From the NCBI GenBank assembly GCA_905221605.1, contig CAJNDS010002401.1, positions 612,542 to 676,541 on the forward strand: a stretch of 64,000 nucleotides of DNA, written 5' to 3'. Source of the stretch: Symbiodinium natans (lineage: Eukaryota > Sar > Dinophyceae > Suessiales > Symbiodiniaceae). Below are positions 48,896 through 61,367 of this stretch, one piece after another. The notes under the pieces were generated by a model. It searched no databases and was not told where the DNA came from. It was given only the letters and a program-made list of their open reading frames with translations. The stretch's first letter is position 1. Each line of letters begins with the position of its first letter. The translations under genes and the position numbers were made by a program.

Positions 48896-51800
48896 ATGGA
48901 TGCACGTCCTTGGCTCGCACTGTTAACGGGTGTGATGCTGGTCTCTGCGGAGCTTTGCTTGCCTGATGGCATTCCCAGGACTAGCCGGGAGTACATTCAG
49001 GATCCGCTGAACAGCCCGGAGGGCAGCGCCATCCGAATGGTCGTTTACGACTGGGCAGCTGCTGAGGTTGCCACGGAGCTGACTGCCATCCTGCTGTCGG
49101 AGGTCTTGGGCTACCACGTCGAGGTCAGCTCAGAGAGGACCACGGGATCCGTGGCGAGTGCACTGCAGCTCGCCGGCTGCGTCTCCTTCGACTGCTCGGA
49201 GAAGCAGCCTCGCAGCCACGTGGCCATGGACACCTGGGTGGCCGGAATGCCAGGGGAGCTGGCGGACTTCGAACGGACGCATCCCGAGTTGGCCGCCAAG
49301 AGCATGGGCTCCATGGGGTACAGCGGCCAGGACACCCTCTATGTGAAAGGGTCTGTCCGTGATGAGGCCTACTATACATCGGGGCTTGCCTTGGAGTTCT
49401 ACAAGAGCTACAACACGTCCCTGCATCTTGGCGGTCTTAGGGACCTGTTTCTGGTTGTTCTTCAAGCTTCTCAAAGCCCAAGCCTGCTCGTATGATGTTC
49501 ATGACTACCGTTAGACGATTGTTAGACGGTCCGAATGATTCTGATTCCCATAATGAGTATGTTGCTGATGACGATGACTATCATGAACACAATTATCACT
49601 ATCGCCAAACATCCCGACGCCGAAGCTCTTGCAAAGCCAAAGCAGGCACGAGCCCTCCAAGTTCTTTAGCAAAGTTTCCGACCTGGACAAAGCTGACTTT
49701 GTCCCCTGCAACTCGAGCGCGCACGAGTTCACCAACGATGTGCAGATGAGGCTTTCTTGTGGCTTTCGGCTTCGGTTGCAAGTTTCATACAGGAGCCTGA
49801 AAGACCTACTGATAATGTTTGTTAGAATCGCTGTGAAGCAATCATGTGCACCTCCCCTGTCTATCTCAACAGGTCCCTGCATTGGAGGTGTTGGGGGCTC
49901 ACCCTAGACCCCCTTCCGGGGGCTTCAGGGTATCCTTGCGTCCCAATCAGGTTCTATGGCCAGTGGACGGGGGACTGGGAAGGCGTGCTCGAGACCGAAA
50001 CAGGATACTCGGCAGGCCCTAGAGGACATTTTTCATGTGCCTTTGTGCTGGGTCGAGCCACTCCCTCTAAACCATACGTACCTTATACCCTAAACCCCAA
50101 ACCTACCCTGAACCCTCAACCTCAACCCTAGCCCGAAAGCCGCAGCCCCACGCCCCAAAACCCTGTAGGGCCAACCTAGGATACATCGCCAACTGCTCGG
50201 ACGGCCATTTCTGGGTGTCCCCCGTTTCTGGGCGCTCAACTGAGGATTCGGCGTGCGAGGGCTTGGGTTCAGGGGCTTTTGGGCTTTGGGGGTTTTAGGG
50301 GTGCAGGGTTTAAAAAGCCGGGTTGGGGTGGCTCTTCAAGCCCTCTATTCGCATTCCTTACCCCACACATGGCATCAGAGCCCCCCCAAACCCATGAACC
50401 CATAAGCCATCAAGCCTCGGCGCCTCAACCCATGAACCCACGAAGCCCTAAGCCCCCTTGAACCCATAAGCCATAAGCCATAAGCCCCCTCCCCCGTCCC
50501 CCCTCCCCCCTTCAAAGCCTCAAAGCTTTATTCCAAATCTGAGCCCTGAGCCCGCAAGCTCCCATACACCCTAAAGTCCTAAAGCCTGAGCCCGAAGACC
50601 CTGAAAGGAGCCCCAAAACCCCCGGTACCTTGCTTGAACCGTGGAACCCTAACCTCCTAAACCCCCCAAAATACCCCCCCAAAACCCCTCCAAAACCCTC
50701 TACAAACCCCCTGAAGCCAAGAGGCTTAAACCCCCCAAACCCCCCAAAACCCACCAAAACCCTCCAAAACCACTCCAAGAGGCTTGCCGCCACAACGTCT
50801 CGGAGTGCATCCCCATCGTGGCGGCCGGGTTTGGGTGGAACGTCTACGCCGCAGGGCCCACCAAGCAAGGCTTAGGGTTTAGGAAGGCATTCTAAGGGCT
50901 TCTGAGGTGTTTTCAAGGGCTTCTAGCGGGTTTAGAGGCGGTTTTGGGCGTCTTTTGTGATCTTGAGGGTCTCGCGCTAGAGGCAGGCCCAGGTTCAGAG
51001 TGGGCGCATGTGCATTCAGAGGGCTTGCGCGCGCGCTCAGGGGGAAAAGGGGGGCCCCGAAGCTCTCCTGAGCCTTTGCCTTGACCGAGGTCTTCATGCA
51101 GTGGTCCACTTTATTTTCCATGCCGACTGCTATTGGCATCCCCAAAGGGGAGGAGCAGCGGAGATTTGCTGTGGAGAACTTCAGGACGCTTTTCCACTGG
51201 TGGTCCCCCGACGCAGCTTTCACGCACCTGGATGCCTCGATGCTGGTGTTTCCTCAACATAACAGGCGCGAGTGGGAGGCCGGCTGGTACCGGACTGCAT
51301 ATCCTGAGAAACTTGGCTGCCCAGCGGTGCTCGTTGTCCCTTTTTGGTGTTTTTTGGGCTCCTGTGCAAAGGCAACCTCTTGCTACTATTACTATCATCC
51401 TCCGGATGAAGTTGGTTCCATTTCCACCCTTATTGAGGTAGACTATGGGCTACCGGGCTACCGAGGAACCAGATCATCAAGCTCGTGGCCGGGCAGCTGA
51501 CTGGGATGGCACCTCGAGTCACGCGGTTCTTGGAGAACTTGGAGCCCTGGCCTGTTTTTTTGGATTTCTTCCCTTTTGAACCACTTCTGCATAGAACATG
51601 AGCTCAAGTGCCACAAGGATGTGTAGTACCTCAAAGCCCAAGCGGACCTAAACCCTAAACCCTAAAACCTAAACCTCAAACCCTTCTTTCTGAGAGCTTG
51701 AGTGTCTTATGAAGGCAACCCTGGCCATTTGGGGGTTTACGAAGATACTGGATCCCTAATATAGACCCCCAAATAGTAGGATTGCCTTATAATATGGACC

Positions 51801-61100: not shown

Positions 61101-61367
61101 CCTCAACCCTCAACCCTCAACCCTAAACCCCAAACTTTTGAACCCGAAACCCTAAACCCCAAACCATAAACCCCCAAACCTCTAAACCCTAAACCCTAAA
61201 CCCCAAACCCTAAACCCCAAACCCTGAAGCCCTCAAAAAAGCCCCAAACCGCGGAGGCCCTGACGGCGCACAGCATCTCCCTGGAGGACGTGGCCAAGGC
61301 CTTGCGCTGGATGAGGACACTCGAGTCCATCCCCTTCCCGCACTCCCTGGATCTGCAGAGCATCTAG
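48896..61367 (+). CDS. ~25-exon receptor-like gene: solute-binding ectodomain, Cys-rich stalk, multi-pass membrane region, TIR-like domain
   Basis: Exons found by eye (a few bases uncertain): 48,896-49,433; 49,675-49,750; 49,929-50,012; 50,170-50,223; 50,780-50,850; 51,090-51,328; 51,466-51,553; 51,897-51,969; 52,113-52,190; 52,349-52,563; 52,659-52,800; 53,011-53,075 (weak); 53,425-53,532; 54,118-54,190 (weak); 54,364-54,448; 57,820-57,885; 58,021-58,593; 58,732-58,839; 58,981-59,112; 59,267-59,430; 59,606-59,925; 60,023-60,110; 60,453-60,548; 60,752-60,843; 61,257-61,367 (TAG). Phases agree at the best junctions (52,190/52,349, 54,448/57,820, 58,839/58,981, 59,112/59,267, 59,430/59,606, 59,925/60,023, 60,110/60,453). 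Donors include GT, GC (52,564; 58,840) and GA (60,111). The protein, about 1,200 residues, starts with a signal peptide and should sit in a membrane. It probably binds a small ligand outside and signals through the TIR-like domain inside; this role is inferred from architecture. No frameshift or stop interrupts the recognised domains. Confidence 0.75.
51733..51803 (-). repeat. Dispersed ~80-bp repeat, copy in receptor intron 7
   Basis: In reverse complement it reads GGTACCTTGTTGGGGTCC..TATAAGGCAATCCTACTATTTGGGGGTC..., matching 53,325-53,409 and more weakly 60,310-60,378 and 38,575-38,660. Confidence 0.55.
53325..53409 (+). repeat. Dispersed ~80-bp repeat, copy in receptor intron before exon 13
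   Basis: This contains TTGGGGTCCTTATTGTAAGG and GTCCTACTATTTGGGGGTC. It ends 16 bp before the exon at 53,425, and its end TAAAAATCTTCGTA matches the end of the 51.7-kb copy. Confidence 0.55.
54785..55417 (-). CDS. Hypothetical protein in AT-rich insert (relic)
   Basis: A 210-codon minus-strand frame (the N-terminal Met-rich part comes from a CAT microsatellite at 55,353-55,380). The remainder reads like real protein: SDVFANRVYQYDRGKRDHH, NLSLLKQMLPQDSNYHIFV, EFYMIPSLNIRKHTDEEQYL and LTKLFSCIVSELHGRFY. It has an unusual Asn/Lys/Tyr content for this GC-richer genome. I do not recognise the family. The last ~30 residues look like non-coding read-through. Together with the next frame it may come from a DNA virus or large transposon; that is only an inference. 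Confidence 0.4.
   Translation of the reverse strand: MRMTILTSGSVQSMMMMMMMMMVLERYRTQVRVSDVFANRVYQYDRGKRDHHTLTLCARMKNNPTYTVGGNLSLLKQMLPQDSNYHIFVKASPDDLRENEKSAPVEFYMIPSLNIRKHTDEEQYLHAWHDGNDLTKLFSCIVSELHGRFYTDKRLIRRKAKPENLVANSIGGSICVRTENPYHRTPKTMYSRAERGVDRARRRVPGEEKS
55688..55984 (-). CDS. Hypothetical Lys/Glu-rich protein fragment in AT-rich insert
   Basis: A 98-codon frame, open to a TAA at 55,688. It reads IIDLYSERKVAQVKTADNFI, RKFLTAKTPKDRDKAEKERS and LSERMEEAKQENIKTGRQ, which is strongly helical and charged. The first codon is not an ATG, so it is probably the 3' end of a longer frame broken to its right. It may form one gene with the 54.8-55.4-kb frame downstream. Confidence 0.4.
   Translation of the reverse strand: MRSIIDLYSERKVAQVKTADNFIRKFLTAKTPKDRDKAEKERSKIYDNSDNPKLSERMEEAKQENIKTGRQTQTPLNPEYETLKEAIKGTLSGQHVLA
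56464..57749. repeat. 1.3-kb AGC/AGT compound microsatellite in a receptor intron
   Basis: A (CAG)n tract (56,464-56,650) passes into (AGT)n (56,668-56,758). A run of the decamer AGTAGTAGTA follows (about 56,760-56,890), then GGA-rich sequence and about 750 bp of almost pure (AGT)n (57,000-57,749). The exon encoding CYKCLPGLRALNNGSC begins 70 bp later, so the array is intronic. Confidence 0.95.
58021..59925 (+). other. Receptor gene part 3: multi-pass membrane region (exons 17-21)
   Basis: Hydrophobic helices occur in order: AALAFAILCLLLGVAFLYVV; VGVVAATQLLTLIQQLVVV; YVLTVSATPILACVALVLHL; LVSILFISIFTALV; MCMIGAVACLMPLCFLTVCI; a loop with Arg-rich FELPKRLRRADATYFRACSF; ALMVVCPLLPSLFVKLVVM; FGAFSAFLLALQVVLYMALM; and ATAIALVFIAMMAFAIAI. 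That is about eight to nine membrane segments. It is followed directly by the TIR-like domain, so the C-terminus is presumed cytosolic. Confidence 0.65.
58856..58930. repeat. Perfect (CCCTAAA)n array filling a receptor intron
   Basis: About ten perfect heptamers lie between exons 18 and 19. The whole intron is only 141 nt, so telomeric repeat makes up over half of it. Confidence 0.95.
60310..60378 (+). repeat. Dispersed repeat, third intronic copy
   Basis: TTACCTTATTGGGGTCCTTACTGTAAGG and ...CCCCCTATTTTCGTAAACCCC resemble the 53.3-kb copy but are more diverged. Confidence 0.45.
61017..61240. repeat. Telomere-variant array: (CCCTCAA)n then CCCTAAA/CCCCAAA
   Basis: About fifteen nearly identical CCCTCAA heptamers are followed by mixed variants. 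It lies within the last intron of the receptor gene and ends 16 bp before the terminal exon. Confidence 0.9.

Follow-up and report, generated by a model that had tools for sequence, protein, structure and literature searches.

The window analyzed here is a 64-kb stretch of Symbiodinium natans DNA (contig C2089:612542-676541 of a 759-Mb genome assembly with 2543 contigs), and its right part carries most of a gene for a predicted membrane receptor with a solute-binding-like ectodomain and a TIR domain. In its final model, the gene has 25 exons (E1-E25) that encode 1337 amino acids (aa) from ATG to stop with zero internal stops. The protein runs from a predicted signal peptide through an OpuAC-type ectodomain, a Cys-rich stalk of Ephrin_rec_like repeats (the Pfam family formerly called GCC2_GCC3), nine hydrophobic segments and a TIR domain to a conserved tail. 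Its parts are as follows.

48896..61359, + strand: in-window part of the receptor gene, 23 of 25 exons (exon model)
48896..48949, + strand: signal-peptide-like N-terminus, MDARPWLALLTGVMLVSA (hydropathy peak at aa 5-23)
48950..52214, + strand: OpuAC-like type II periplasmic-binding ectodomain, E1-E9, aa about 19-418 (Pfam and profile searches)
52334..57877, + strand: Cys-rich stalk, E10-E14, aa 419-628, with 22 Cys (Ephrin_rec_like, or GCC2_GCC3)
54455..57819, + strand: intron 13, between stalk exons, 3365 nt
58050..59797, + strand: nine hydrophobic segments, E15-E19, aa 638-979 (hydropathy and paralogue alignment)
59846..61359, + strand: TIR domain, E19-E23, aa 996-1136 (profile and model matches)
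60510..60512, + strand: codon of E1064 (in WCVGE), which pairs in alignment with the Glu in SARM1 ‘W...EIVTA’
61360..64000, + strand: in-window portion of intron 23 (2901 nt in all), with an intronic TAG at 61365
Window-equivalent 64261-64736 and 65345-65473, + strand, outside the window: exons E24 and E25 (loci L053/L054)

The initial annotation, made from the letters of the window, had joined short same-strand exons in frame into one gene with dinoflagellate-type splicing. Both points hold. The 25-exon chain is open and paralogues repeat it. All 24 introns of the final model have AG acceptors, with G as the next base in 22, and their donors are GC (11), GA (7) and GT (6). This pattern agrees with the rule published for Symbiodinium, where GC and GA donors are used besides GT and AG is often followed by G; the mean there is 19.6 exons per gene (available part of PMC4083563).

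A first model was built by hand with 23 exons from the ATG at 48896 to the TAG at 61365, giving 1188 aa with no internal stop. When aligned with the paralogue L035, it showed insertions or gaps at 9 of its 22 introns, and at each an alternative donor or acceptor nearby, shifted by a few bases up to 66 bases, fits better. That junction set was rejected, and the nine introns were changed with L035 as guide, leaving 22 of 22 acceptors as AG and 20 followed by G. The E3/E4 junction is ambiguous between two donors, 50003 (used) and 50015. With the revision, E-values improved from 9.5e-5 to 5.4e-6 for OpuAC in the full protein, from 4.2e-4 to 4.2e-5 for TIR_2 on the TIR piece, and from 5.7e-8 to 1.5e-9 for NCBIfam ThcB4 on the TIR. 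Ephrin_rec_like was not improved (29.4 to 29.0 bits), and NCD3G stayed near 17.7.

Reading frames were examined using a leave-one-out codon model, in which each exon is scored against the codon usage of all the rest. The claimed frame is preferred in 24 of 25 exons of the final model among the three plus-strand frames and in 23 among all six; for the first model the counts were 22 and 21 of 23. Because open frames had been chosen beforehand, the test is not fully independent. E22 fails the six-frame test, and E14 (58 nt) fails both; the failure of E14 counts against the model.

The gene had been thought to end at the TAG at 61365 (to 61367). This end was rejected as premature, because the TAG is intronic and the exons continue to window-equivalent 65473. 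The paralogues have a tail with no counterpart inside the window, and it was located on this contig 263 bases beyond the right edge of the window, in the orientation of the gene. A split into two genes was also rejected. The last membrane segment and the first TIR motif, FFISHHK, lie together in E19 with no intron between them, the frames of L035 span all 22 first-model junctions, and L049 and L051 are single frames.

Those frames come from a search of the genome with the 1188-aa model, which gave at least 54 matches; some of the open frames hit exceed every exon of the window gene by a wide margin. Match counts from genome searches are lower bounds here, with exons of one gene counted apart. 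Twenty regions were chosen from the 54 matches for reading, leaving out, for example, C166, C1858, C581, C278, C1906 and C380. In L035, a 790-aa frame covers query 17-758 (ectodomain, stalk and first four membrane segments) and a 622-aa frame covers query 784-1188 and beyond (remaining membrane region and TIR). For L034, a single tblastn alignment spans query 166-1188; it contains two in-frame stops, of which one falls within an insertion. L051 and L049 are single frames of 1270 and 1286 aa that join an ANF_receptor domain to stalk, membrane region and TIR, and in L041 and L042 one frame (1171 and 1132 aa, respectively) runs from the ectodomain through the stalk to the membrane region. L038, L039, L046 and L052 are broken into many pieces as in the window gene.

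Since the intron-poor paralogues repeat the exon chain, the chain represents one protein rather than a string of accidental open reading frames. They also answer the concern that transcripts might divide the exons among separate genes, and they bear out the proposed domain order by having it in one or two frames. The window exons are thus confirmed, at the level of sequence, as one real gene. That this copy is a decaying pseudogene, or an artefact of joined unrelated frames, is very improbable. Its 24 introns are rich in repeats, E14 is weak in the codon test, and some paralogues have in-frame stops; set against these are the fully open 25-exon chain with splicing as published, paralogues that repeat it without these introns, codon usage that favours the claimed frame in 24 of 25 exons, and OpuAC and TIR scores that rose once a paralogue set the junctions.

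The introns contain several features of their own. Intron 13 has a 210-aa minus-strand frame (54788-55417) without Pfam match and more than 1 kb of trinucleotide (TAG-type) repeats at about 56400-57750. Past E23, intron 23 has tandem-like repeated blocks at about 62505-63750, open on both strands. Telomere-type CCCTAAA/TTTAGGG units number 185 in the window (125 + 60), compared with about 7 in mononucleotide shuffles. In the first-model gene, 47 such units lie in 22 introns (in 12 of the 22) and 0 in 23 exons, in some introns directly before the acceptor.

The gene is not a one-off. It is a member of a large mixed family in the same genome; no other paralogue was found in the 64-kb window. When nine open frames were scanned with Pfam, three had ANF_receptor (L049-L051), three had OpuAC, L044 and L047 had neither, and L035b, a C-terminal half, had none. 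The OpuAC model gave at least 8 genome matches on 6 contigs, with a TIR match within 3 kb downstream on the same strand on 4 of the 6. Two contigs with OpuAC and TIR, C644 and C930, seem to carry duplicates of a single locus. ANF_receptor gave at least 33 matches, followed on the same strand within 7 kb by a TIR match on seven contigs (C2182, C2114, C47, C481, C557, C131 and C1035). With the TIR of the window gene itself as query, at least 63 matches, counting its own, were spread over 41 contigs. Pfam PF01582 (TIR) found two genome places at E up to 0.001, neither among those 63; as this model misses all places retrieved by the window TIR, the family is easily overlooked.

A FastTree of the membrane region (13 members, 342 columns, L036 partial with 283 of 342) parts five TIR-less members, L041, L042, L044, L047 and L050, from the rest with support 1.000. 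The contigs of these five are not among the genome matches of the window TIR. Among these five, L050 groups with L041/L042 at a node whose support is only 0.472. OpuAC and ANF ectodomains each occur on both sides of the tree, with and without TIR, so at least two ectodomain changes are required. Sequence comparison of the paralogues thus establishes that outer domains were exchanged on a common membrane core.

The ratio of nonsynonymous to synonymous substitution was 0.23 in one half of L035/L036, 0.35 in the other half and 0.41 in L041/L042 (three comparisons, two paralogue pairs), indicating that these genes are under constraint by purifying selection. On C209, C2013, C641 and C400, receptor-family or ANF_receptor frames stand in same-strand threes, mostly as long open frames. 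These groups recall the tandem single-exon genes of Polarella (available part of PMC7245778). No convincing spliced-leader relic was found: the best in the window has 2 of 15 mismatches near 44448, and the fetched loci have none with 0-1 mismatch. Beyond this genome, tblastn confirmed no relatives in IMG/VR or GTDB contigs, collections not meant for protists. Likewise, the TIR had no match in plasmids, where absence means little for the same reason, and PHROGs gave one chance-level match (0.29).

Turning to the protein, the initial assignments of OpuAC and GCC2_GCC3 were sound, both models scoring above the Pfam cut-off in the spliced protein (OpuAC 5.4e-6, 26.6 bits versus a gathering score of 21.2; Ephrin_rec_like 9.4e-7). 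The stalk also has an NCD3G-like match below cut-off.

A profile was made from A2, an alignment of six ectodomains, and compared with solved structures. The best of seven matches was PDB 7yle (4e-8), the next four were betaine- or choline-binding entries (3.5e-6 to 4.5e-4), and the remaining two were an antibody (0.48) and 4xz6 (0.49). A search with the single ectodomain sequence found no betaine-binding structure, only one unrelated match at 0.69. 7yle is RnDmpX with bound dimethylsulfoniopropionate (DMSP), which sits in a cage of four tryptophans, Trp35 among them (available part of PMC10030565). W53 of the window protein (A2 W36, invariant, in ‘(Y/F/S/G)DW’) aligns to chain position 35 of 7yle. 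The candidate pocket residues are W53, W240, H301 and W303. In hhalign, a glycine betaine binding protein of Rhodobacteraceae matches at 5e-7 over 126 columns with 18% identity, pairing ‘FHWWSPDAAF’ with ‘FYCYTPHHMF’, and choX matches at 1.3e-5 over 71 columns without the FHWWSPDAAF motif. Four A2 cysteines, C180, C217, C228 and C235, are invariant and are added relative to the bacterial binding proteins. A plasmid search with the L041 ectodomain gave 11 records, ten at E 0.08-0.8 and one, without annotation, at 2e-5; two of the 11 were used for comparison.

An OpuAC/DmpX-type fold is therefore well supported by the profile matches, while a betaine- or DMSP-like ligand is a reasoned guess. Several observations weigh against such a ligand: the W35 stretch of the DmpX match scores 7.4 bits by itself, the match being carried mainly by the C-terminal lobe; candidate W114 is missing from L037; and the position of DmpX Tyr200, placed by motif, is occupied by His in three sequences (the window, L035 and L036) and by Tyr in three others (L041, L042 and L037). 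The pocket could have diverged, such that the ectodomain binds a ligand that is not betaine-like or just another receptor subunit. We consider this a serious possibility, short of an even one. The identity of 18% over 126 columns, the cage kept in part and the several added cysteines are consistent with it, and a DMSP protein as best match is not a ligand assignment. On the other hand, W53, W240 and W303 (A2 W36, W223 and W286) are invariant in six of six ectodomains, other candidate cage positions being variable.

For the membrane region, eight to nine segments had been proposed, and hydropathy gives nine. This count comes from hydropathy alone; the weakest segment scores 1.66, and the tail has an extra peak of 1.58 at aa 1210-1228. 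Counted in this way, L049 and L051 have nine segments but L041 has eight plus one in the tail. Both points make the number less firm. A signal peptide with an odd number of passes would place the TIR in the cytosol. No Pfam model, 7TM_3 and TRP included, matches the membrane region of the window protein at E up to 1.

The nine-helix part might instead be a TRP/FLC-like channel or transporter with the TIR as an accessory, so that solute gates an ion flux. PF06011 (TRP, cut-off 28.5 bits) is indeed just exceeded in the TIR-less L041 (29.2) and L050 (29.3). The same model finds nothing in L049, L051, L037 or L047 at E up to 0.05 and reaches just 0.02 in L044, which, together with the lack of any match in the window protein, leaves the channel reading improbable.

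The TIR assignment is supported by ThcB4 (1.5e-9, 37.2 bits, far under the equivalog cut-off of 220 bits), which matches four of six TIRs tested, and by a profile match to SARM1. The profile was made from A1, an alignment of seven TIRs comprising that of the window and the uninterrupted ones of L034, L035, L036, L043, L049 and L051. Omitted were the interrupted L033, L037, L038, L040, L046 and L048, together with L052, which was absent from the results of the motif search; that search listed 13 motif-bearing TIR segments from the fetched loci, one of the two from L037 being a chance match. Against solved structures, the A1 profile matched SARM1 from 7.2e-6, followed by tir-1 (3e-4) and a plant TIR (0.08). 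The single TIR sequence reached SARM1 at 0.022, besides one unrelated row at 0.54. The first-model TIR also matched ThsB1 (5.2e-6).

Yet other searches speak less clearly for a TIR. TIR_2 gives 4.5e-4 in the final protein and 4.2e-5 for the isolated TIR, where 24.5 bits stay below the Pfam cut-off of 28. Among five paralogous TIRs, that of L035 was not matched, and the other four fell short of the cut-off at 1.3e-4 to 0.09. When L049, L051 and L035b were scanned as entire frames, no TIR came up at E up to 0.05.

Invariant in seven of seven A1 sequences are, among others, F10, D40, D42, W75, C76, G78 and E79, and the L033 segment carries WCIGE. E79, which is E1064 of the window protein, is aligned with the Glu of SARM1 ‘W...EIVTA’, the catalytic residue of that enzyme. 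Cleavage of NAD+ is suggested by this conserved Glu together with the similarity to SARM1 and Thoeris proteins.

Alternatively, the TIR may be a scaffold that recruits other TIR proteins without cleaving NAD+, as animal TIRs of the Toll-like receptor type are thought to do (available part of PMC13142454). Partners are conceivable, as the genome has two other TIR types, and the conserved tail might aid assembly. We think a scaffold unlikely, given that all seven aligned sequences keep the catalytic-type Glu as well as the Trp four positions before it, and that SARM1, an NAD hydrolase, is the closest of the solved TIRs. The two other TIR types, L001 (425 aa in its open frame, with hydrophobic stretches) and L002 (more than 700 aa), were not retrieved by the genome search with the window TIR. 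The tail after the TIR is 52% identical between the window gene and L035 (L053 261-736; L035 about 1257-1997). Its motif ‘KALLICSTG...W’ is TIR-like by eye, without the WCxxE glutamate, and neither of two tail sequences tested had a Pfam match. In an atlas of 7,432 eukaryotic TIR domains, several clades are uncharacterised and confined to eukaryotes, and a few others are SARM1-like and include dinoflagellates; the words OpuAC and solute are absent from its main text (available part of PMC13142454).

No characterised receptor of this build was known to the initial annotation, and our searches of open-licence papers listed no description of one. The modules are known singly; their combination and the mix-and-match family appear undescribed as far as could be seen. 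Judged by its domains, the gene would be of the clamshell, Cys-rich linker and multi-pass receptor kind with a TIR output added, and we know of no such receptor with a TIR output. Class C G-protein-coupled receptors (GPCRs) and other ANF_receptor receptors share the clamshell, linker and multi-pass domain, and the below-cut-off NCD3G-like match lies in the stalk. Unlike them, the window protein has an OpuAC-type clamshell (ANF_receptor being found in paralogues L049-L051 instead), nine segments versus seven, no 7TM_3 match, and a TIR output versus G proteins.

Among alveolate relatives, the apicomplexan CRMPA and CRMPB have a large ectodomain, Ephrin-receptor-like Cys-rich repeats and nine transmembrane segments; CRMP homologues are reported in Dictyostelium, and CRMPA has a Kringle (available part of PMC9815656). 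They resemble the window protein in an Ephrin_rec_like stalk with nine segments (by hydropathy in the window) and differ in that the available part of their description has no periplasmic-binding ectodomain and no TIR, the likeness being one of description and not of aligned membrane regions (PMC9815656). OpuAC-type binding proteins (RnDmpX of 7yle, OpuAC, choline-binding proteins) are alike in the OpuAC score above cut-off, the profile matches and the candidate cage Trp; the window domain differs by its fusion to a eukaryotic membrane receptor, extra Cys and no transporter partner. The NAD-consuming TIRs of SARM1 and Thoeris (ThsB, ThcB4), a kind that acts in cell death in animals and bacteria, share the profile match and the aligned Glu, whereas that of the window is tethered to a multi-pass receptor with the rest of SARM1 absent. 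Toll-like receptors too are membrane receptors with a TIR, but the window protein has no Pfam leucine-rich repeat match and many passes versus one.

We infer the topology, ligand class, conformational coupling and enzymatic output as follows, this being the mechanism we favour. The receptor would sit in the plasma or vacuole membrane with its N-terminal clamshell, of the type II periplasmic-binding OpuAC/DmpX kind, outside. Because of its family, this ectodomain may bind a small positively charged, osmolyte-like solute such as betaine, DMSP or a relative. Closure of the clamshell would be passed through the Cys-rich stalk to the nine-helix bundle, whose packing would change and alter, bring together or cluster the TIRs in the cytosol. 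In this superfamily, the coming together of TIRs turns on the cleavage of NAD+. The TIR with its conserved Glu might then cleave NAD+ or make an NAD-derived messenger. For this multi-pass receptor, in which a betaine- or DMSP-like solute outside switches a cytosolic NAD-consuming TIR, we see the case as evenly balanced.

Elsewhere in the window, plus-strand frames of a long interspersed nuclear element (LINE)-type retroelement at 21018-25353 match endonuclease (1.4e-6), RNase H (1.5e-13) and reverse transcriptase (2.8e-39). In the 1121-aa frame ahead of them (17102-20464), Pfam finds nothing at E up to 0.01. A 1639-aa minus-strand open frame (1718-6634) has a weak AAA match alone (3.6e-4, below cut-off).

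Few dinoflagellate cell-surface receptors are known to us. The family offers a first ligand class to test (betaines, DMSP, choline) and a first output (NAD+ cleavage), with clamshell ectodomains exchanged on a common membrane core and a TIR placed on a multi-pass receptor. We tentatively conceive of a chemosensory or innate-like system in which a nine-helix core carries an ANF_receptor or an OpuAC/DmpX-like clamshell and one group has an NAD-cleaving TIR; the OpuAC-TIR members might sense betaine- or DMSP-type metabolites from neighbours, hosts, bacteria or lysing kin and respond by an NAD-derived messenger or NAD loss. If true, this would be a class-C-GPCR-like design with an enzyme of the bacterial-immunity type replacing G proteins, and it would give a testable route for the alga to react to osmolytes from hosts, bacteria or dying cells.

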